Assembly (NCBI GenBank): GCA_903903765.1
Contig: CAIVAH010000133.1
Span: forward strand, 1-15,473
From: an uncultured Methylococcaceae bacterium
GTDB lineage: Bacteria > Pseudomonadota > Gammaproteobacteria > Methylococcales > Methylomonadaceae
Reading direction: 5' to 3'
DNA: 15,473 nucleotides
Below the pieces are notes generated by a model. That model saw nothing but the letters and a program-made list of their open reading frames with translations, did not search any database and was not told where the DNA came from. Below are positions 5,588-15,280 of the stretch, piece by piece. Each line of letters opens with the position of its first letter. The stretch's first letter is position 1. The translations under genes and the position numbers were made by a program.

Positions 5588-6445
5588 TTAAGCAACCAAC
5601 GTCATTGAAGCTTTAATTTTTTTCATGGCATTTTGCTCTAACTGTCTAATTCTTTCTGCAGAAACATTATATCGCTCTGCAAGCTCATGCAATGTTGCCT
5701 TATCTTCAGCTAACCAACGACTGGTTAAAATATCAATACTGCGAGCATCTAATTTTGCCATTGCCTCAGATAATAAATCATGGCCATGATCTTCCCAATC
5801 TGCGTTTTCAAGCAATTCTGAAGGATCAGCCCCATATTGTTGCAAATAATTGACAGGATAAAACGCTGTTTCTTCACAAGACTCATCGGTCGGCATATCA
5901 AAAGACATGTCATGACTACTTAAACGCTTCTCCATTTCATAAACATCACTTAGATCCACATTTAAATCATCTGCGATAGCTATCGCTTCGGAATTTGATA
6001 ACCATCCTAAATCTTGTTTAGATTTTCGTAGATTAAAAAATAATTTACGCTGCGCTTTTGTAGTCGCTATCTTTACTATGCCCCAATTCTTAATGACATA
6101 TTCATGAATTTCAGCTTTAATCCAATGCACTGCAAAAGAGACTAAACGTACCCCCACATCAGGATCAAAACGTTTAACCGCCTTCATTAAACCAATATTA
6201 CCTTCTTGAATAATGTCAGGCATTGATAGGCCATAACCGCTATAACCTCTAGCAACATGAACGACAAATCTTAAATTGGTCATAACCAATTGTCTTGCTG
6301 CTTCTAAATCACCTTCATCTCTGTATCGAAGGGTTAATTCGCGTTCTTCTTCAACCGTTAAACGCGGTATTTGTCTTACTAAATTCAAATATGCATCGAA
6401 TGTTCCAACAGACAAATTAACCGGTAATGCTATTGAGCTATTCAT
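5588..6445 (-). CDS. rpoH: RNA polymerase sigma-32 factor (heat-shock sigma) RpoH
   Basis: Directs RNA polymerase to heat-shock promoters for chaperone and protease genes. The start chosen is the ATG at 6445, giving 285 residues (E. coli RpoH has 284). It has GGAG five bases upstream and begins MNSSIALPV. A longer frame from a GTG at 6484 would add 13 residues, but that GTG lies inside the CIRCE operator and is rejected. Sigma region 2 is well conserved (LIQEGNIGLMKAVKRF-like stretch and RLVSFAVHWIKAEI). The RpoH box QRKLFFNLR falls at residues 132-140, as in E. coli. Region 4 ends with the helix-turn-helix YNVSAERIRQLEQNAMKKI. It follows ftsX, as is usual in gammaproteobacteria, but has its own operator and probably its own promoter; the bidirectional terminator lies downstream. 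Confidence 0.97.
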   Translation of the reverse strand: MNSSIALPVNLSVGTFDAYLNLVRQIPRLTVEEERELTLRYRDEGDLEAARQLVMTNLRFVVHVARGYSGYGLSMPDIIQEGNIGLMKAVKRFDPDVGVRLVSFAVHWIKAEIHEYVIKNWGIVKIATTKAQRKLFFNLRKSKQDLGWLSNSEAIAIADDLNVDLSDVYEMEKRLSSHDMSFDMPTDESCEETAFYPVNYLQQYGADPSELLENADWEDHGHDLLSEAMAKLDARSIDILTSRWLAEDKATLHELAERYNVSAERIRQLEQNAMKKIKASMTLVA

Positions 6446-6474
6446 ACTATCTCCAAGTAAAAAACTTTTTTGCG

Positions 6475-6504
6475 ATTTTAGCACTCTCCTTTGAAGAGTG
6501 CTAA
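6475..6504 (-). promoter_or_regulatory. rpoH: Possible sigma-70 promoter of rpoH embedded in the CIRCE
   Basis: On the minus strand the right CIRCE arm runs into an extended -10 element, TGCTAAAAT, whose hexamer TAAAAT (6475-6480) matches TATAAT at five of six positions. TTAGCA at the start of the left arm (6499-6504) can serve as a weak -35 with an 18-base spacer. Transcription would start near 6468, leaving a leader of about 23 bases that includes the GGAG site. HrcA bound to CIRCE would then cover the promoter. This is inferred from sequence only; a second promoter inside ftsX is also possible. Confidence 0.42.
6478..6504. promoter_or_regulatory. Perfect CIRCE operator (HrcA-binding site) upstream of rpoH
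   Basis: The inverted repeat TTAGCACTC-N9-GAGTGCTAA is present with both nine-base arms exact and the exact nine-base spacer. This is the full consensus of CIRCE, the operator of the heat-shock repressor HrcA. Its edge is 32 bases upstream of the rpoH start codon and it lies wholly in the gap between ftsX (stop at 6524) and rpoH, so it can only act on rpoH. In known cases CIRCE overlaps the promoter or leader of groESL or of the hrcA/dnaK genes. hrcA itself is not in the window. Confidence 0.95.
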
Positions 6505-6523: not shown

Positions 6524-7543
6524 TTACTGCAACTTATTAGACCTTAACTCAAAAAACAAAACCACCCATGCTCCCATGATACCCAGAAGCGATGAAATAA
6601 ATAATAAAAACACGGTTTCAGGAAAACTGAGAAAAAGTAAATGCATATCACCTTGATAAAGACCTGATAACCTCTCAACAGATCCTCTTAAAATTAACAT
6701 CAGGATAGTAACGATGAACCAAGCACTGACACCTGAAATAAAACCTATCCAAAATCCAGTGTATAAAAAAGGTCGACGAATAAACCCATTTGTTGCACCC
6801 ACTAATTTAGAAATAACTACTTCAGCTCGCCGACTATAAAACTCTAAACGTACAGTATTACCAATAACAACCAGCACGGCGGTAGATAATAATATATTCA
6901 ACAAAGTTGCAAATACTTGGGCCACCTCAACTATTGCCTGTAGACGCTCAACCCATTGCAAATCAAATTGTGCAAAATCAACTTCAGGCATTTGTTGAAA
7001 GCTTTTTAATAAATCAGTCAAACTTTGCTTATCGGTTAAAGTATTATTAGGCAACACTTGTATTACGATGGGTAAGGGATTCTTTTTAAGTACATTAATA
7101 GCAGACCCAAAACCACTGTATTCTTTAAACTCTGCTAAGGCCTGATCCTTAGAAATCAACTGAACCGTCTGCACACTCTGGTTGTCACGAATATTTTCTG
7201 ACAATTTTTTAGCATGTACATCTGATACTTCATCCCTAAGAAATAAAGAAATTTGACTACTGGTTTGCAAATTACCTGTCAATTGATGAATATTAACCAC
7301 AGCAATATAAAAACCGCTAGCTAAAGAAATAGAGATCGCAAGAACTGCAATCGTCATTATTGAATTAAAGGGCGTCGAAAGCATCCGACCTAAACTAGAA
7401 AACAAGGCCTGTGCGTGTAAGTCACGATAAGCATTGAACTTATCTAAAACCGTTCCACCTGCCAGCGTTGTTTGGCGTTTCTCTGGTTTGACTTGTTTAA
7501 TAGGTGGATCTTTTTTAATACGATTTTTATTTACACGTTTCAT
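6524..7543 (-). CDS. ftsX: Cell-division ABC transporter permease-like protein FtsX
   Basis: Membrane partner of the ATPase FtsE. In gammaproteobacteria the FtsEX complex sits at the divisome and controls septal cell-wall hydrolases through EnvC-type activators. The protein has 339 residues with a basic cytoplasmic N-terminus of about 58 residues, TM1 (about 59-83), a periplasmic domain (84-205), then TM2 (about 208-232), TM3 (about 262-285) and TM4 (about 308-332). The cytoplasmic loop holds the family motif KLVGAT (246-251). Its ATG lies three bases after the ftsE stop, so the two are translationally coupled. Nothing in the sequence looks damaged. Confidence 0.96.
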   Translation of the reverse strand: MKRVNKNRIKKDPPIKQVKPEKRQTTLAGGTVLDKFNAYRDLHAQALFSSLGRMLSTPFNSIMTIAVLAISISLASGFYIAVVNIHQLTGNLQTSSQISLFLRDEVSDVHAKKLSENIRDNQSVQTVQLISKDQALAEFKEYSGFGSAINVLKKNPLPIVIQVLPNNTLTDKQSLTDLLKSFQQMPEVDFAQFDLQWVERLQAIVEVAQVFATLLNILLSTAVLVVIGNTVRLEFYSRRAEVVISKLVGATNGFIRRPFLYTGFWIGFISGVSAWFIVTILMLILRGSVERLSGLYQGDMHLLFLSFPETVFLLFISSLLGIMGAWVVLFFELRSNKLQ

Positions 7544-7546
7544 GAC

Positions 7547-8203
7547 TTAACTCACTACTAATTGGCCGTGGTCTAACTTTAAGACACGTTGATTTAACTG
7601 TGAGATCAAAGAAATATCATGTGTAGCTATTAAAATAGTCACCCCAACTTGTTGAAATTGACGAAACAACTGCATAATCTCGGCTGATAACTCTGGATCT
7701 AGATTACCCGTAGGTTCATCCGCAATAATGATAGGTGGCTTATTAACAACAGCCCGCGCAATACCAACACGTTGCTGCTCTCCCCCTGACAATGCCAAGG
7801 GATACTTTTTCTCTTTACCTTGTAAACTTACTTTCTCTAATGACGCTCTAACACGTCTCGTGACTTCTTGATGACCATAACCAGCAATAATTAATGGCAA
7901 TGCTACATTATCAAATACAGTTCTATCATTAAGTAACTTATAATCCTGATAAATAAAGCCCATTTTTCTTCTTATAAATGGTAGTTGACTTTCTTTCGCA
8001 AGACTTAAATCTTGGCCATCAACCAGAATCTGTCCACGAGTACATCGTTCCATGACCGCAATTAATCTTAATAACGTACTTTTTCCAGCTCCCGAGTGAC
8101 CAGTAAGAAAAGCCATTTCTCCGCGCTCAAGATCAAAACTAACGTTACGCAGTACATCTCCGGTCTCTTCGTAACGCTTAATTACATTAAGAAAATGAAT
8201 CAT
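7547..8203 (-). CDS. ftsE: Cell-division ABC transporter ATP-binding protein FtsE
   Basis: Cytoplasmic ATPase of the FtsEX complex. At 218 residues it has the family's usual length. It carries Walker A GHSGAGKST (35-43), the Q-loop Q86 in YQD, the ABC signature LSGGEQ (138-143), Walker B IIIADEP (158-164) and the switch histidine H195. The ATG begins five bases after the stop of the COX15-FtsY fusion. There is no strong Shine-Dalgarno sequence, so coupling to the upstream gene is likely. The order ftsY-ftsE-ftsX-rpoH is the conserved gammaproteobacterial one, except that FtsY here is the C-terminal half of a fused protein. Confidence 0.96.
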   Translation of the reverse strand: MIHFLNVIKRYEETGDVLRNVSFDLERGEMAFLTGHSGAGKSTLLRLIAVMERCTRGQILVDGQDLSLAKESQLPFIRRKMGFIYQDYKLLNDRTVFDNVALPLIIAGYGHQEVTRRVRASLEKVSLQGKEKKYPLALSGGEQQRVGIARAVVNKPPIIIADEPTGNLDPELSAEIMQLFRQFQQVGVTILIATHDISLISQLNQRVLKLDHGQLVVS

Positions 8204-8208
8204 GACAA

Positions 8209-10164
8209 TTAATCTTTAACAAATAAAGCATCAACAAATAATTCGGCGTTAAAATCTTGCAAATCATCAATACCCTCCCCTATGCCGATAAAACGGATAG
8301 GTGTACCTGTATGTTTAGCCAAAGCGAATATCACGCCACCTTTTGCTGTACCATCAAGTTTTGTTAACACCAAACCTGTTAAAGAAACTGCTTCGTTAAA
8401 TAATTTTGCTTGCGATAACGCATTCTGCCCTGTTCCCGCATCTAAAACCAAAAGCACTTCGTGTGGAGCCGATTCATCTAATTTACCCATTATTCTTTTG
8501 ATTTTCTTTAATTCTTCCATCAAATTGGACTTCGTATGTAAACGACCTGCTGTATCAGCAATTAAAACATCAATTCCTTTGGCTTTAGCTGATTGTAATC
8601 CATCATATATAACTGAAGCAGAGTCTGCACCTGTATGCTGTGCGACAACAGGAATATTATTTCTCTCGCCCCATACCTGAAGTTGCTCCACCGCAGCTGC
8701 TCTAAAGGTATCTCCTGCCGCAAGCATCAAGCTGTGACCTTGAGCTTGCAGCCGTTTAGCTAGCTTACCTATAGTAGTAGTCTTACCTGCTCCATTAACA
8801 CCTACCACCAAGATAACAAAGGGGGTATTTTGTTTAGGAATTTCTAGAGGCTGACTACATGGTTTAAGAATTCTATATAACTCTTGTTTTAAAGCCGAAG
8901 CCAAGGCCTCACTATCTTTAAGCTCATGTCGCTCAAGGTTGGTTGTCAAACGTCTAATAATCTCTGTCGTTGCATCAATACCGACATCAGCCATCAACAG
9001 ATTGGCTTCTATATCTTCAATTAGTTCCGCATTGAGATCTTTTTGACCCAAAGGCAAACCTGCCAAAAAGCCACCTAATCCTGTACGTGTTCTTTTTAAC
9101 TGAGCTTTAAGTCTTAGATATAAAGACTCTGGTAAGGGCTCTACATAGACTTCAGCAATATCAACTGTTAAATCCTCTTCTTTACCCTCTTCCGTTACTG
9201 CAATCTGTTCTATTGATTCACTGACGTGCTCTATTTCAGAAACAGATTCTCTACTGTAACCGCTATAAAAACCAATCGAAATCAATGGCAACATTAATAG
9301 AACTGCCAACGCATAATGAATCGTTCCCATCCATAGCGGCAAATGGAATTTAAGCGCAACAATTTCTAAACCAACCACACCAAACAATAAAATACCAAGC
9401 AATAATCCCGCTTTTTTAACTGACTTAGTTGAATTAGTTGATGTCGCTAAGAACATCAATGCACTAAGGACAATAAAAACGACTAAAGCATTTACTCGAT
9501 GCAACCAATTAATCGCAACTTGACCATCATAAGAAATAACACCATCGTACTGAGTTATCAAACCTCTAATTAGATCAAGTGCACTTGCAAAATCAGCTTG
9601 AGGTATCCATTGACCATTACATTGGGGAAAACCATTACAAGCCATCGCTCCATGATTTACAGTAACCCATATACCCAAAGTGATTTCAACTATTAATAAC
9701 AATACTGCAACTGGAATTAGAGCTTTTAAAAAACTATTTTCTGACTTTGTTTTTTCATTTAAGCTGGCAATTTGCGCATCCTGACCTGAGTGCAGTAATA
9801 AATAATAAAGTAGCCAAAATATTAATAAACCAGATATTAAGTGAAACGCGATAACTATTGGGTAACCAGTATATAAAAATGCAAAAAACGTTAGTGCTGC
9901 TTGTAACAAAATTATAAAGAACACTATGAAACTAGTAATAATTATTTTTAGTTTTAATGGTTTTTGTAACCAAGCGACTATGTTTATAGATAAAACCGTA
10001 AATCCCAAAGCCATAGTTAGGTATTTATGAGCTTCAGTTTTTATTACTTCAATCAAGTCATGATCAATAATACCAGCAGATATATCACCAATCCTAACAG
10101 GTAACCCCAATACCAAGATGATTGCTGTTAAAACAACACTGAACAATGTTAATTTTCTAAACAT
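8209..10164 (-). CDS. COX15/CtaA heme A synthase - FtsY (SRP receptor) fusion protein
   Basis: Two complete enzymes in one 651-residue frame. Residues 1-300 are a COX15/CtaA heme A synthase, which oxidises the C8 methyl of heme O to heme A for cytochrome oxidase. It has eight predicted membrane helices, the four heme-ligand histidines H46, H108, H222 and H283, E44, and the motif AC176NGFPQC182NGQW. An acidic linker (301-345) resembles the FtsY A domain. Residues 346-651 are the FtsY NG domain: the N-domain helix starting LYLRLKAQLKRT, G1 GVNGAGKTTT (455-464), DTFRAAA (485-491), DTAGR (537-541), TKLDG (601-605) and GIGEGIDDL (627-635). The frame has no ATG, GTG or TTG from codon 295 to 366; the nearest upstream internal ATG, codon 291, lies in the last membrane helix and has no good ribosome site. 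The gene starts ten bases after the SCO-like stop and is followed by ftsE after five. A free FtsY therefore appears to be lacking. An assembly error is the main alternative. Confidence 0.93.
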   Translation of the reverse strand: MFRKLTLFSVVLTAIILVLGLPVRIGDISAGIIDHDLIEVIKTEAHKYLTMALGFTVLSINIVAWLQKPLKLKIIITSFIVFFIILLQAALTFFAFLYTGYPIVIAFHLISGLLIFWLLYYLLLHSGQDAQIASLNEKTKSENSFLKALIPVAVLLLIVEITLGIWVTVNHGAMACNGFPQCNGQWIPQADFASALDLIRGLITQYDGVISYDGQVAINWLHRVNALVVFIVLSALMFLATSTNSTKSVKKAGLLLGILLFGVVGLEIVALKFHLPLWMGTIHYALAVLLMLPLISIGFYSGYSRESVSEIEHVSESIEQIAVTEEGKEEDLTVDIAEVYVEPLPESLYLRLKAQLKRTRTGLGGFLAGLPLGQKDLNAELIEDIEANLLMADVGIDATTEIIRRLTTNLERHELKDSEALASALKQELYRILKPCSQPLEIPKQNTPFVILVVGVNGAGKTTTIGKLAKRLQAQGHSLMLAAGDTFRAAAVEQLQVWGERNNIPVVAQHTGADSASVIYDGLQSAKAKGIDVLIADTAGRLHTKSNLMEELKKIKRIMGKLDESAPHEVLLVLDAGTGQNALSQAKLFNEAVSLTGLVLTKLDGTAKGGVIFALAKHTGTPIRFIGIGEGIDDLQDFNAELFVDALFVKD

Positions 10165-10174
10165 CTTTTACCCG

Positions 10175-10912
10175 CTAGCCAATTTGTGAAATTCTAAGTA
10201 AATGCATTAGATCGTCTTTTACCTTGTAGGTATCAAAGCCAGAATCGTATTGCATCATTAAGTTACCTAATGGATCAATTAAAAAAAGCATTCCATCTTG
10301 TAAAGGTTGCTTACTGATCGCTGATATTTTATTTAATACTTCCTCACTCAATTTGATTCTTATTAAATCAGAATTAAGTGCCATTTCTTTATTCTCATTT
10401 TCAATTAGTTTATTGATCAACCCAGAATCGAGCTTATTTTCTTGGTGCAATAAACGCCTATATTGATCATGACTTTCTTTGTCTTCAATACGATTTAAAC
10501 GCCATAATAGCGTATCTTTTAACCACCACTCCGAGGCAACATCTTCATTTGGACTTTTATATATAATGGCTATGCGTCTAGTGCGAGGTAACTCTTTATT
10601 CAGCATCAATCTTAATTGTTTAGTCTTTAATAAAGACTCGATACAAACCTCATTACAGCTATCATTTGGAATCACATTAGCTATCAACCAATGCCCCTGT
10701 ATTTCTTTGATATTATTTACCGAAAAAGTATCAAACCCACTAATATCTTGTTGAGCTATAGTAATAGGAGGGATAACGAGTTGACCTCTATTTGTTGTGC
10801 CATTAACTAAATTTGGATGTTCTTTTAATCCCCAAGCGATTAAAAACGGAATAATAGTCATTGAAAAAATAGAGACTATTAAAATTTGATTTTTCTTCTG
10901 TTGTTCATTCAT
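10175..10912 (-). CDS. SCO-like membrane-anchored protein of the cytochrome oxidase cluster
   Basis: A 245-residue protein with one N-terminal membrane anchor (about 10-28) and a periplasmic region. The segment GHWLIANVIPNDSCNEVC holds a C86-x3-C90 pair placed like the CxxxC of SCO copper chaperones, and FLIDPLGNLMMQY (210-222) matches the late strand of a thioredoxin-like fold. The third SCO copper ligand, a histidine before the last strands, is not apparent, so copper binding may differ or be replaced by thiol-disulfide activity. Proteins of this kind commonly sit between SURF1 and COX15 in gammaproteobacterial oxidase clusters and are usually annotated as hypothetical. The start overlaps the end of SURF1 by eight bases, indicating coupling. 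A role in assembling CuA or CuB is inferred from context only. Confidence 0.8.
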   Translation of the reverse strand: MNEQQKKNQILIVSIFSMTIIPFLIAWGLKEHPNLVNGTTNRGQLVIPPITIAQQDISGFDTFSVNNIKEIQGHWLIANVIPNDSCNEVCIESLLKTKQLRLMLNKELPRTRRIAIIYKSPNEDVASEWWLKDTLLWRLNRIEDKESHDQYRRLLHQENKLDSGLINKLIENENKEMALNSDLIRIKLSEEVLNKISAISKQPLQDGMLFLIDPLGNLMMQYDSGFDTYKVKDDLMHLLRISQIG

Positions 10913-11621
10913 TTTTATTATTCTTTTTACTATACCAAAAAAACAACACTGTTAAAGTTAGAGCTAAGGCAAACCACTGAATAGCATAAGCTAAATGCTG
11001 TTCAGGCAACATAATTGCACTGAGTTGCCAGTCGCGTTTATAACCTTCGGATGATTCCTTATCTAATTCGACTTGAAAATTAAAAAGATCATAACCCAAT
11101 ATTTTAGCCAAAACTTGATTATCAACTACTTGCACTACAGCGGGCCAAGTTAAACTAGGTATTTCTGAACCAGACAATTTAATTCCAACACTTGGAAAAC
11201 TATTTATTCTCCCAGTAATCTCTTCAGGATTAGTCTGTAGACTCAAATCAGGCAAGATATTTCTATTTACATTAAGAGGAACCCACCCCCTATTGACTAA
11301 TACTGACCGTGAACCATCTAATAAGATAAAAGGTGTCAAAACAAGGAAACCTACTTTACCGGCGTTTATTTGATTATCAATCAAAAACTGATGGGTTTCA
11401 TCATAACGCCCTTTGATAATTACTTTTTTATATCTCAATAACTCACTGTCGTCTATAGTATTATTGGACAAATGCAAAACTTCAGAACTTGCGATACCTG
11501 CTTGTCGCTGTTCTAACAATTCTTTTTTTTGTGTCGCACGATCTAATTGCCATAAGCCTAAGCTAATTAACAACGCTAATGCACATAAATAAACGATCGT
11601 AGGTGTTTTTTTAAAATTCAT
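10905..11621 (-). CDS. SURF1-family cytochrome oxidase assembly protein
   Basis: Assembly factor of aa3-type oxidases; bacterial SURF1 proteins bind heme a and help insert it into subunit I. The protein has 238 residues with two membrane helices (about 7-24 and 212-231) around a periplasmic domain, the family topology. Visible motifs are LGLWQLDRA (21-29), IDNQINAGKVGFLVLTPF (81-98), RGWVP (111-115) and HLAYAIQWFALA (209-220). It is the first gene of a minus-strand run that continues through the SCO-like protein and the COX15-FtsY fusion into ftsE and ftsX. The ATG is the only usable one, since two ATGs just upstream hit stops at once; its ribosome site is weak. It is divergent from the DUF2909 gene. 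Confidence 0.93.
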   Translation of the reverse strand: MNFKKTPTIVYLCALALLISLGLWQLDRATQKKELLEQRQAGIASSEVLHLSNNTIDDSELLRYKKVIIKGRYDETHQFLIDNQINAGKVGFLVLTPFILLDGSRSVLVNRGWVPLNVNRNILPDLSLQTNPEEITGRINSFPSVGIKLSGSEIPSLTWPAVVQVVDNQVLAKILGYDLFNFQVELDKESSEGYKRDWQLSAIMLPEQHLAYAIQWFALALTLTVLFFWYSKKNNKNE

Positions 11622-11727: not shown

Positions 11728-11988
11728 ATGATTCTTCAAAGTATCGTACTTATCACCTTTATTATAATAATTATAACTTTAGGTTCGGCTTTATATCACT
11801 TAATAAAACATAAATCAGAAGAACAATCACAAAAAACTCTTAAATCATTAACCTTTCGAATTTCGCTTTCATTGATTTTATTTGTATTTATTTTTATTGC
11901 TTTTGCAACTGGCCTCATTAAACCTCATGGCATAGGTTTAAAAATGCACAACGCACATACCGCCGATATTGAACAAAATAAACATTAA
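11728..11988 (+). CDS. DUF2909 twin-transmembrane protein
   Basis: An 86-residue protein with two hydrophobic helices (about 2-25 and 45-65) separated by a charged loop (HLIKHKSEEQSQKTLK) and a polar tail. This fits the small DUF2909 family, which is regularly encoded inside gammaproteobacterial aa3 oxidase clusters, between subunit III and SURF1. Its biochemical role is not known to me; a part in oxidase assembly is inferred from position. It is the only gene on the plus strand in the cluster, divergent from SURF1 and convergent with coxC. No Shine-Dalgarno sequence is visible before the ATG. Confidence 0.85.
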   Translation: MILQSIVLITFIIIIITLGSALYHLIKHKSEEQSQKTLKSLTFRISLSLILFVFIFIAFATGLIKPHGIGLKMHNAHTADIEQNKH

Positions 11989-12053: not shown

Positions 12054-12905
12054 TTACATTAAATATACGAAAATAAATAACCCTAACCAAACTACGTCAA
12101 CAAAATGCCAATACCAAGCAGCTGCCTCAAATGCAAAATGGTTCTCTGGTGAGAAGTGACCTTTAGTACTACGGAATAACACCACACTTAATATTATTGC
12201 TCCGACACAGACATGGAAGCCATGGAAACCTGTTAGCATAAAGAAAGTCGAACCATAAACACCCGACCCTAATGTCAAGCCCATTTCTGTATAAGCTTCA
12301 TGATACTCAATCGCTTGAAAACATACAAACAAGAAGCCTAATGCTACCGTTGCAATTAAACCTTTAATCAATTGATCACGGTTTTTTGCCAATAAGCCAT
12401 GATGAGCCCAAGTACAAGTCACACCACTTGTTAATAAAAGCAAAGTGTTTAAGAATGGTAAACCCCATGCACCCATAGGTTCAAAATCACCACCTACTTT
12501 ACCTGGCCCATTCGTGGGCCATGTTGCATCAAAAGCAGGCCATAAAAGTTCTTTAGTTGCACCTTCACCTAACCAGGGTACCGATAAATTTCTTGTGTAC
12601 CAAAGAGTGCCAAAAAACACTGCGAAGAAAACTATTTCTGAAAAGATGAACCACATCATGCCATGTCTATATGAAATACCCACCTCATGATTATACATGC
12701 CCGATTCACTTTCTTTTGCTTGCAAGCTGAACCAACCTACCAACATAGTGATAAAAGTCAATAAACCAACTATCATCATCGGCTGTCCAACTGAAGAACC
12801 GTTTAAGTAGTTAGCAAATCCAGCGAGCATAATCATCAACCCAACCGTTCCAACAACGGGCCAAGTCGCCTTATGCGGTATGTAATACGTGCTATTTGTA
12901 GACAT
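12054..12905 (-). CDS. coxC: Cytochrome c oxidase subunit III
   Basis: Core membrane subunit of the aa3 oxidase; it binds subunit I and supports proton uptake and turnover stability. At 283 residues it has seven membrane helices, including an N-terminal pair. Conserved pieces are the SE90IVFFAVFF helix with its buried glutamate, TLLLLTSGVTCTWAHHGLL (154-172), LTGFHGFHVCVG (224-235) and the C-terminal WYWHFVDVVWL (264-274). The ATG is supported by AGGGGAA just upstream. It follows cox11 after 26 bases and is the last gene before the terminator at 12000-12034. The call is secure. Confidence 0.97.
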   Translation of the reverse strand: MSTNSTYYIPHKATWPVVGTVGLMIMLAGFANYLNGSSVGQPMMIVGLLTFITMLVGWFSLQAKESESGMYNHEVGISYRHGMMWFIFSEIVFFAVFFGTLWYTRNLSVPWLGEGATKELLWPAFDATWPTNGPGKVGGDFEPMGAWGLPFLNTLLLLTSGVTCTWAHHGLLAKNRDQLIKGLIATVALGFLFVCFQAIEYHEAYTEMGLTLGSGVYGSTFFMLTGFHGFHVCVGAIILSVVLFRSTKGHFSPENHFAFEAAAWYWHFVDVVWLGLFIFVYLM

Positions 12906-12931
12906 TAGATTCCCCTATTTTAATTATTTAT

Positions 12932-13471
12932 TTACCTTTCAGTATTATCGAAAAATGTGTATGACAGCGTAATAGTTTTATATTGCTCAGGTATTTCTGG
13001 GTTAATAACAAAACGCATCGGCATTTTTTTAGTTTCCCTTGGTTTAAAGGTTTGCTCTGAGAAACAAAAACACTCTATTTTTTCAAAATATTTACTTATT
13101 AAAGCCGGCGAAAAACTAGCGATAGCTCTAGATTTCATTTCTTTATTTGTTTTATTTTCAGCATAAAAGTTAACCGTATGGTATTCACCTGGGTGCACTA
13201 TTATTTGTTTCTTTTCAGCGTAAAATTCCATAGGAGTCGACTCGTTTAATACAGTCAGAAACTCCACAGTTATCTCTCTATTAACATCGACTTTATGAGC
13301 GGATTCAGATACTTTCTTAATATCATCTGGCCTATCACGCTCTATCCATTTCCATTCACATAACACATCGTAAATAGGCACTAAAGCATATCCAAAACCA
13401 AACATAGCTACTGCCACCAATAATAGGGTTCTCGCCAGTTTAAGGTTTTTTCTACTAATAGAATCTGTCAT
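12932..13471 (-). CDS. ctaG: Cytochrome c oxidase assembly protein Cox11/CtaG (CuB insertion)
   Basis: Copper chaperone that delivers Cu(I) to the CuB site of subunit I. It has 179 residues with an N-terminal cytoplasmic tail, one membrane helix (about 12-34) and a periplasmic immunoglobulin-like domain. Copper ligands are visible as IEC134FC136F, the CFCF motif, with a further cysteine C38 just after the membrane helix. The conserved segments YALVPIYDVLCE (28-39) and MPMRFVINPEIP (150-161) confirm the family. The ATG overlaps the stop of the upstream 31-aa microprotein by one base (TAATG), so its translation is probably coupled to that gene. Confidence 0.96.
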   Translation of the reverse strand: MTDSISRKNLKLARTLLLVAVAMFGFGYALVPIYDVLCEWKWIERDRPDDIKKVSESAHKVDVNREITVEFLTVLNESTPMEFYAEKKQIIVHPGEYHTVNFYAENKTNKEMKSRAIASFSPALISKYFEKIECFCFSEQTFKPRETKKMPMRFVINPEIPEQYKTITLSYTFFDNTER

Positions 13472-13566
13472 TAAGATACGGCTTGAGCAACTGCGAATAA
13501 ATAGAAAATTAAGGTAATAGCCCCTAAAATAACCGCCGTTAAAATATTCTTATTTTTTACTGTCAT
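13471..13566 (-). CDS. 31-aa membrane microprotein, likely cytochrome oxidase small assembly protein
   Basis: A short gene missed by ordinary length cut-offs. It encodes 31 residues: a basic head MTVKNKN followed by a single membrane helix (about residues 8-28) ending FAVAQAVS. The stop overlaps the cox11 start by one base as TAATG, the usual sign of translational coupling. Small one-helix proteins lie between subunit I and Cox11 in many proteobacterial oxidase operons and are annotated as cytochrome oxidase small assembly proteins; position, size and topology fit. No clear ribosome site is seen upstream of the ATG, which lowers the confidence. The molecular role is unknown. Confidence 0.7.
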   Translation of the reverse strand: MTVKNKNILTAVILGAITLIFYLFAVAQAVS

Positions 13567-13582
13567 GTTTATATATAAAGTT

Positions 13583-13619
13583 ATGTAGCGTAGTCATCGT
13601 TAACAAAACTACGCTACAT
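13583..13619. other. 12-bp perfect inverted repeat between coxA and the microprotein gene
   Basis: ATGTAGCGTAGT (13583-13594) and ACTACGCTACAT (13608-13619) are exact inverse complements around a 13-base loop. The hairpin lies 15 bases after the coxA stop on the minus strand. No T-run follows in that direction (the next bases are AACTTTATATATAAAC), so it is not a standard terminator. It more likely protects or punctuates the 3' end of coxA mRNA, giving more subunit I than assembly factor, or is a partial terminator. Confidence 0.8.
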
Positions 13620-13633
13620 TAGACTTACAAAGC

Positions 13634-15280
13634 TTAGTGTGAATCAAGCACGTGTTCAGTAGGCACAGTTAAAGGAGGTGTCGTCCAAGTATGATATGGA
13701 ACAGGTGAAGGCAATGTCCACTCTAAACCATGCTTACCTGCATCTTCCCATACTTCATCAGAAACCTTCTCACCAGTACCACCTCTGATAGTATCAATAA
13801 CTATGTAAAGGAAAAGTAATTGACTAGCTCCAAAAATAAAACCACCCACACTAGAAATCATATTCCAATCAGCAAATTGCACAGCATAATCTGGAATACG
13901 TCTTGGCATACCTGCCAAACCTAAAAAGTGTTGTGGGAAAAATAATATATTGACAGAAATAACTGACAACCAAAAATGTAATTGGCCAATTTTTTCGTTA
14001 TACATATGACCAGTCCATTTTGGTAACCAAAAATAACCTGCAGCCATCAATATGAATATTGATGCAGGTACTAAGGTGTAATGGAAATGTGCCACAATAA
14101 AATAGGTATCATGATATTGAAAGTCTGATGGTGCAATAGACATCATCAGACCAGTAAAGCCACCCAAGGTAAATAAGACTACAAATGAAATTGAAAATAA
14201 CATTGGCGTTTCAAATGTCATTGCACCTTTCCACATTGTAGCAGTCCAGTTAAATACTTTTACACCCGTCGGAACAGCAATAATCATGGTTGCGTACATA
14301 AAGTACAACTCACCCGCAATTGGCATACCCACAGTAAACATGTGATGCGCCCATACGATAAATGACAAAAATGCAATAGATGCAGTTGCCCACACCATAG
14401 ATGCATAACCGAACAATGGCTTACGTGCAAACACAGGAATGATTGTAGAAGCTACGCCAAAAGTAGGCAAAATCATAATATATACTTCTGGATGACCGAA
14501 GAACCAGAAGATATGCTCATACAATACTGGATCACCGCCACCCGCAGCATTAAAGAAGCTGGTATGGAAAAACTTATCAGTTAATAACATAGTCACTGCA
14601 CCAGCAAATACCGGCATAACAGCAATTAATAAAAACGCAGTAATCAACCAAGTCCATACAAACAAAGGCATATCCATCAACTTCATAGCGGGGGCACGCA
14701 TATTGAATATGGTCGCGATAATATTAATAGCGCCCATAATTGATGAAATACCTAACAAATGCACAGAGAAAATAGCAAAAGGCAGTGCTTTTCCAACAGT
14801 AATCGGTTGCAATACTAAAGGTGGATATAAAGTCCAACCGCCATTAGGTGCGCCACCTTCCATGAATAATGTACTGGCTAATAACAACACACCAGCAACC
14901 AACATCCAAAAACTCATATTGTTCATACGAGGTAATGCCATATCAGTAGCACCAATCATCAATGGAATTTGCCAGTTGGCTAAACCAACAAACGCTGGCA
15001 TAACTGCACCAAACACCATGACTAAAGCATGCATAGTAGTCATTGAGTTGAAAAATGCAGGATCTACAAACTGCAAACCTGGCTCGAATAATTCAGCTCG
15101 AATTACCATAGCCATTGAGCCACCCACAAAAAACATGGTTAAAGCGAATAATAAATACAAAGTACCAATGTCTTTATGATTGGTAGTAATAACCCATCTC
15201 AACAATCCTTTATCGGGACCGTGATCGTGGTGATCATCAGCATGGTGATCATGATCATGTTCATCTACAACAGCAGACAT
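13634..15280 (-). CDS. coxA: Cytochrome c oxidase subunit I (aa3 type)
   Basis: Catalytic subunit of the terminal oxidase: it reduces O2 to water at the heme a3-CuB centre and pumps protons across the inner membrane. It has 548 residues and 12 membrane helices. Ligands and channels are all present: H84 and H400 for heme a, H398 for heme a3, H263, H312 and H313 for CuB, the cross-linked Y267, E265 in GHPEVYI (type A1), D113 with N120/N121 of the D channel, and K341 with T338 of the K channel. The N-terminus is unusual in carrying a stretch rich in His and Asp (residues 7-20, seven His). The ATG is supported by AGAGG about nine bases upstream. It lies between coxB and the microprotein/cox11/coxC group. 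Confidence 0.98.
   Translation of the reverse strand: MSAVVDEHDHDHHADDHHDHGPDKGLLRWVITTNHKDIGTLYLLFALTMFFVGGSMAMVIRAELFEPGLQFVDPAFFNSMTTMHALVMVFGAVMPAFVGLANWQIPLMIGATDMALPRMNNMSFWMLVAGVLLLASTLFMEGGAPNGGWTLYPPLVLQPITVGKALPFAIFSVHLLGISSIMGAINIIATIFNMRAPAMKLMDMPLFVWTWLITAFLLIAVMPVFAGAVTMLLTDKFFHTSFFNAAGGGDPVLYEHIFWFFGHPEVYIMILPTFGVASTIIPVFARKPLFGYASMVWATASIAFLSFIVWAHHMFTVGMPIAGELYFMYATMIIAVPTGVKVFNWTATMWKGAMTFETPMLFSISFVVLFTLGGFTGLMMSIAPSDFQYHDTYFIVAHFHYTLVPASIFILMAAGYFWLPKWTGHMYNEKIGQLHFWLSVISVNILFFPQHFLGLAGMPRRIPDYAVQFADWNMISSVGGFIFGASQLLFLYIVIDTIRGGTGEKVSDEVWEDAGKHGLEWTLPSPVPYHTWTTPPLTVPTEHVLDSH

Follow-up and report, generated by a model that had tools for sequence, protein, structure and literature searches.

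The locus considered here raises the question of what becomes of the SRP receptor FtsY when it is encoded in one frame behind a protein related to haem A synthase. FtsY is essential and is normally a peripheral membrane protein, and the haem A synthase CtaA has both of its ends in the cytoplasm. In the window, as we call the whole stretch of 15,473 nucleotides from an uncultured Methylococcaceae bacterium that was analysed, an earlier note had described one uninterrupted frame of COX15 and FtsY, and the 651 open codons with their Pfam and NCBIfam matches bear this out (Table 1). Sequence comparisons make it likely, in our view, that a haem A synthase, originally bifunctional and by now mostly decayed but still haem-b-binding, has turned FtsY into an integral membrane protein, the two being produced as one polypeptide.

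Table 1. Features of the fusion gene and its neighbors in the window
Feature	Position	Strand	Basis or remark
COX15-FtsY fusion gene	8209..10164	-	651 aa; open frame, Pfam and NCBIfam
COX15/CtaA-derived domain, residues 1-301	9262..10164	-	eight predicted membrane helices
N-terminal half, residues 1-130, substrate-haem site	9775..10164	-	E57 replaced by Thr43; H46 and H108 kept; first-loop Cys pair absent
C-terminal half, residues 142-301, haem-b site	9262..9741	-	H222, H283, C176 and C182 nearly invariant
Acidic disordered linker, residues 305-345	9130..9252	-	in-frame ATG absent
Helix 348-368	9061..9123	-	aligns with the E. coli FtsY stretch immediately ahead of the N domain
FtsY NG GTPase, residues 373-651	8209..9048	-	Pfam, NCBIfam, E. 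coli alignment, Foldseek
HYP245, upstream neighbor	10175..10912	-	Pfam: none; NCBIfam: weak, below cut-off, redox-active disulfide protein family
SURF1, oxidase assembly	10905..11621	-	Pfam
cox genes COX3, COX11, COX1	12054..15280	-	Pfam
ABC ATPase, called FtsE from context	7547..8203	-	Pfam shows ABC ATPase only
FtsX	6524..7543	-	Pfam
Sigma-70 family factor, called RpoH from context	5588..6484	-	Pfam shows sigma-70 factor only

The COX15-CtaA family (PF02628) matches residues 45-292 with 97 bits against a Pfam cut-off of 29.9, covering only positions 80-319 of the 322 in the profile. In the remainder of the protein Pfam places SRP54_N at residues 373-429 and SRP54 at 448-648, and the score of 366.4 bits for the NCBIfam ftsY equivalog TIGR00064 exceeds its cut-off of 260.7; the NG GTPase is complete, as originally read. 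The 50 matches listed by Foldseek against the PDB are FtsY/SRP GTPases and concern the NG part; with phmmer against the same database, the window's COX15 half gave no match up to an E-value of 1, and an unfused relative matched the haem O oxygenase 8aw5. The C-terminal part of E. coli FtsY can be aligned with residues 315-650, and the NG portion is about 62% identical. Most of the soluble acidic A domain of the E. coli protein has given way here to a membrane domain of eight helices with a short acidic linker. The eight helices are predicted both by hydropathy and by AlphaFold2. The structure prediction of the whole protein, which had been proposed as a check, gives these helices and, after them, disorder from 305 to 345, one more helix at 348-368 and the NG domain, with a mean pLDDT of 77.9 and a pTM of 0.50, at which the relative placement of the domains is unreliable. 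This predicted anatomy of eight helices and then NG supports the earlier suggestion that FtsY is here an integral membrane protein.

Residue and segment counts below refer to 87 fused representatives, namely loci L001-L037 and L118-L177 with a strong FtsY match, less exact duplicates and the unfused L167-L170; as these are the best-scoring loci together with picks by genus, the fractions are not population estimates. The named loci L038-L070, some of which may be further genomes, were left out of the residue counts. A crude hydropathy count gives 8 hydrophobic segments in 56 of the 87, 7 in 26, 6 in 3 and 9 in 2, a variation that leaves the topology unproven for some fused proteins. L130 (565 codons), with six segments, is missing approximately the first 90 residues. 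The fused frames of L147, L153 and L156, at 775-878 codons, exceed all others.

The window presents the series COX1-COX11-COX3-SURF1-HYP245-fusion-ftsE-ftsX-rpoH, in which the fusion gene lies 10 nt after HYP245 and ftsE 5 nt downstream of it. The fusion shares its eight helices and its place after SURF1 and HYP245 with the proteobacterial cox-operon COX15/CtaA, which has Cys pairs in both loops, and shares the ftsY-ftsE-ftsX-rpoH order, named partly from context, with gammaproteobacterial FtsY. It differs from the cox-operon enzyme in having a partner at its C-terminal end, in no longer having ctaB next to it and, in the window, in being without E57 and the first-loop Cys pair. A DUF2909 gene (window 11728-11988) runs against the direction of the cox genes, an orientation also seen in most relatives where it was found. 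Several loci of family f4 (L154, L155, L158, L175 and L177) keep the fusion, with ftsE and ftsX not found in the adjoining fetched stretch.

If the polypeptide were cut, or FtsY were also started internally, separate COX15-like and FtsY proteins would result, and we regard this as unlikely. The disordered linker of about 41 residues offers a plausible cleavage site, and in the linker region of 20 of the 87 proteins a start codon of any kind is combined with a Shine-Dalgarno-like match; however, these start-like sites fall in no conserved column (5/87 in the best one) and are rarer per codon than in the flanking domains (3.4 per 1000 codons against 5.7 and 14.3), and the single frame is maintained across six families. 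An in-frame ATG occurs in the linker region of 13/87, with a Shine-Dalgarno-like match in only 1/87, and the region has 2.2 ATG per 1000 codons where the flanking domains have 23.9 and 17.8, a low density that may in part reflect linker composition. Free FtsY from an internal start is hence unsupported, start-like sites in the linker being rare and without a common column.

The two halves of the COX15 domain have fared differently. In the available parts of PMC12808453, E57, H60 and H123 are assigned to the substrate-haem half and H216 and H278 to the haem-b half, and E57 is described as strictly conserved; the alignments there leave out fusions, and FtsY is unmentioned in those parts. In the window protein all four haem-ligand histidines are present where the earlier note had placed them (H46, H108, H222 and H283). 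Of its "paired cysteines" the C176/C182 pair stands, but the first-loop pair of type 1 enzymes is missing, in a loop that is shortened relative to L168. The catalytic Glu of the ExxHR motif (E57) is likewise missing, with Thr43, three residues before H46, in its place, so that "complete" does not describe this active site. The counts over the fused representatives are as follows: 1) The triad E57/H60/H123 is intact in 24/87 fused proteins versus 48/48 unfused operon relatives in one alignment. 2) E57 considered alone is Glu in 29/87 versus 48/48 controls; an alignment-free ExxH pattern, which missed 8 controls, was found in 23/87 and 40/48. 3) The first-loop Cys pair is present in 54/87 versus 48/48 controls by a loose pattern, for which the first hit in L162 and L172 is a spurious N-terminal C...C and a small number of further matches are questionable. 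4) No other position of the COX15 half is as conserved as C176, C182, H222 and H283, each of which is present in 86/87; in a second alignment the haem-b histidines were recovered in 83/87 (H216) and 76/87 (H278), the shortfall being mostly gaps. A structure alignment covered 57 of the 64 two-domain proteins and the window protein. The C half is eroded in L124 and L145, and in L124 and L125 (genus g8) tblastn found no similarity to the window's COX15 half. The frames of the latter two have 620 codons (7 hydrophobic segments) and 662 codons (8 segments), in loci that also contain COX1, COX11 and COX3. Parsimony on the FtsY tree, which has many weak forks, requires at least 15 changes, gains or losses, of the intact-triad state. 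Median omega over 91 pairs, many of them divergent or saturated at silent sites, is 0.30 for the COX15 N half, 0.24 for the C half and 0.12 for FtsY, with 0.35 for the linker (87 pairs) and values of about 1 in the N half for some divergent pairs; selection on the fusion is mainly purifying. The active site of the fused enzyme half seems to have been lost in many members, including that of the window, while the haem-holding membrane part was kept.

Haem A is probably supplied by a standalone CtaA in most fused species. Among 151 genomes searched, 131 belong to the fused families, and 128 of these have at least two PF02628 matches, although the matches may share one gene, with a single match each in G177, G187 and G246; the 20 unfused genomes have one match in 15, more in 2 and none in 3. 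The first-loop Cys pair, E57, H123, H216 and H278 are found in 40/40 of the standalone CtaA copies fetched, and the 17 of these in the COX15 tree form a distant clade (support 100). All 40 copies (L182-L221) also show Asn at H60, the first haem His, a substitution given for 34% of type 1C sequences in the available text of PMC12808453. In the window genome, the second CtaA (L181) is an 88-residue contig-edge fragment that ends before E57 and shows 64% identity over 69 residues to the standalone copy of M. buryatense; ctaB is on contig C238.

The earlier note had taken the fused half for the enzyme that makes the haem A of CoxA in this organism, and a fusion that were both active haem A synthase and SRP receptor in the window species would link CoxA insertion to haem A supply. 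The position of the gene after the cox genes, the retention of all four histidines, the purifying selection on the COX15 half, and the members with intact triads, with G177 having a single CtaA match, are consistent with such a dual role. Nevertheless, Thr at E57 and the absence of the first-loop Cys pair, set against the E57 of every standalone copy in relatives and the separate CtaA piece in the window genome, make it improbable for this species. Residual haem A synthase activity of the window protein is possible, given the survival of H46 and H108. Nascent CoxA may have been brought next to the enzyme making its haem in the ancestor, as had been proposed, and this arrangement may persist in members with an intact triad, notably in G177 (94% complete, contamination 4). 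In this genome the fused triad is intact and the only detected CtaA is the fused one, and it may preserve the bifunctional ancestral state.

As we envisage the integral FtsY, the eight-helix domain from a cox-operon haem A synthase would hold it in the membrane, with the NG domain acting as SRP receptor on a flexible tether and permanent anchoring taking the place of reversible lipid binding. The ancestral fusion would also have made haem A, whereas in the window species this would fall to the separate CtaA, leaving the fused half as a haem-b-binding pseudoenzyme anchor. Haem b binding, and any effect it may have on FtsY, are suggested by the conserved ligands. The haem-b histidines and the second-loop Cys pair rank highest in conservation even where the substrate half has decayed, as would be expected if the SRP receptor were regulated by the retained C-terminal half through its haem-b or redox state; but these residues may simply stabilize the helix bundle, and we consider such regulation unlikely. 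Should the fused domain, having lost haem A synthesis, have become a haem-b/disulfide sensor tuning the SRP receptor, an idea to which we give little credence, then membrane-protein insertion in these methanotrophs would respond to the status of haem or of oxygen/redox. The best-supported reading is an SRP receptor that is permanently anchored, based on the predicted anatomy and on the precedent of E. coli, in which an FtsY tethered permanently to the membrane works (PMC2780400, in its available part, citing Zelazny 1997).

The fusion is no peculiarity of a single genome, and the group of bacteria that has it consists mostly of methane oxidisers. The search of relatives for COX15 followed by an SRP54-type GTPase, another check that had been proposed, recovered it in six of the order's eight sampled families, the other two having FtsY alone. 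All 35 genomes of the genus match, 30 with the whole protein in a single frame and 5 with pieces only, several of these visibly at contig ends. In the family sample, counted by hand, FtsY is in one frame with COX15 sequence in 143/151 genomes, including G068, whose COX15 part was recognized at the locus level; 7 of the remaining genomes are without FtsY, showing weaker relatives only, and G073 has a contig-edge piece. Families f2-f6 have the fusion in 52/54 genomes (G230 is partial and G237 without the FtsY part), and the 20 genomes of f7 and f8 have standalone FtsY in at least 18, in frames of 331-367 aa, with FtsY not found in G219. In a class sample of 229 genomes, 225 of which gave any match, the matches listed include the fusion only in the order's two members, and outside the order none of them starts before residue 293. 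A second, standalone FtsY beside the fusion was not seen among the matches listed, which reach well below FtsY scores, and in 18 exceptional genomes that were re-searched the FtsY matches were fusion parts, cut pieces or absent. The window genome, 80% complete, contains the fusion and one 35% match on contig C258, which is Ffh-like judging by its length. The named-genome scan retained 80 of 93 loci; in L038-L070 both parts are in one frame in 31/33 loci, one of them truncated at the 5' end, and L049 and L051 reach the contig edge before FtsY. The named loci include those of Methylovulum, Methylotuvimicrobium, Methylobacter, Methyloglobulus and Crenothrix, all of the Methylococcales, and the fusion frame is open in the isolates Methylovulum miyakonense HT12 (L054) and Methylotuvimicrobium buryatense 5G (L063) and in the complete genome of Methylomicrobium sp. 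wino1 (L065). A protein search in which 7998 candidates of suitable length were scored found both domains in 64 of 66 matches, and one record, named FtsY, is from the methane-oxidising endosymbiont of Gigantopelta. With a metagenome bin as fragmented as this one, in 328 contigs and at that completeness, an artefact of assembly or a frameshift might be suspected, but this has a negligible chance of being right, as named isolates and a complete genome have the frame open as well, and the conservation of the fusion in the genus, family and order samples, including isolates and single-contig chromosomes, excludes both chance and artefact. A tie to methanotrophy was likewise rejected: the AMO/PmoA family is present in the unfused f7 and f8 and was not found in several fused genomes, including that of the window, and hence the fusion does not simply track it.

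Gene order suggests how the fusion arose. In the unfused L168 (f7) and L170 (f8), an M16 peptidase gene has beside it a divergent ftsY-ftsE-ftsX-rpoH series, which heads for ctaB-ctaA on the opposite strand, and the betaproteobacterial L087, with COX15-CTAB, reversed RpoH and FTSY and then M16, matches this arrangement. The fused L163, L164 and L166 (f6) show ctaA-ftsY, ftsE, ftsX, rpoH, reversed ctaB and M16, except that L166 yielded neither ftsE nor ftsX, and the fused L156 (f4) retains reversed ctaB and M16 downstream. In the window genome a divergent M16/ctaB pair (L178 on contig C238), apart from the fusion contig, may be read as a relic of an inversion breakpoint. These arrangements fit a single inversion of the ctaB...ftsY block, with breakpoints between ctaA and ctaB and between ftsY and M16, which would have put ftsY behind ctaA. 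Among the 55 fused loci that were fetched together with their flanks (L118-L166, L171-L175 and L177), only these 4 have ctaB downstream of the fusion, so that later rearrangement has to be assumed in the others, unless their ctaB lies beyond the fetched stretch. A COX15 tree of 25/87 fused, 17/48 control and 17/40 standalone rows agrees with one origin: the 25 fused rows form one group (SH-aLRT 93) beside the unfused L168 (97), whose COX15 copy is 31% identical to that of the window, and L162 (f5) is the first branch among them (96 for the rest). The FtsY tree is less clear: the remaining fused rows exclude the fused L151 (f3), on a long branch, together with the unfused L170 (f8) (support 86), and L162 clusters with f6 and f2; taken at face value, the placement of L151 counts against a single origin.

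Some Actinobacteria have an FtsY with membrane segments. The eukaryotic SR-beta tether and engineered membrane-tethered FtsY are further permanently anchored SRP receptors, as discussed in the available part of PMC2780400. The predicted fusion protein resembles all of these in the permanent anchoring of an SRP-receptor GTPase and differs from them in that its anchor would be a former haem enzyme with haem-b ligands. A haem A synthase is also joined to another protein in many archaeal type 1A enzymes, which are fused to haem O synthase (PMC12808453, in the part available), but that partner belongs to the same pathway and FtsY does not. The earlier note knew of no described COX15-FtsY fusion, and our search of the full-text literature by titles and abstract openings, with subscription journals mostly outside it, agrees in finding no published description. 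The combination is recorded in precomputed Pfam annotations, yet is undescribed as far as we have seen; the COX15 half is easily overlooked because sources naming these proteins say FtsY or SRP receptor.

Whether bacterial SRP receptors need to leave the membrane is debated (PMC2780400, available part). Six of the eight sampled families, cultured methanotrophs included, appear to have a permanently integral FtsY, and the question of membrane release thereby becomes testable in nature. The case also offers a traceable origin in one inversion, a likely bifunctional ancestor, and an enzyme that repeatedly decayed to become a membrane anchor.
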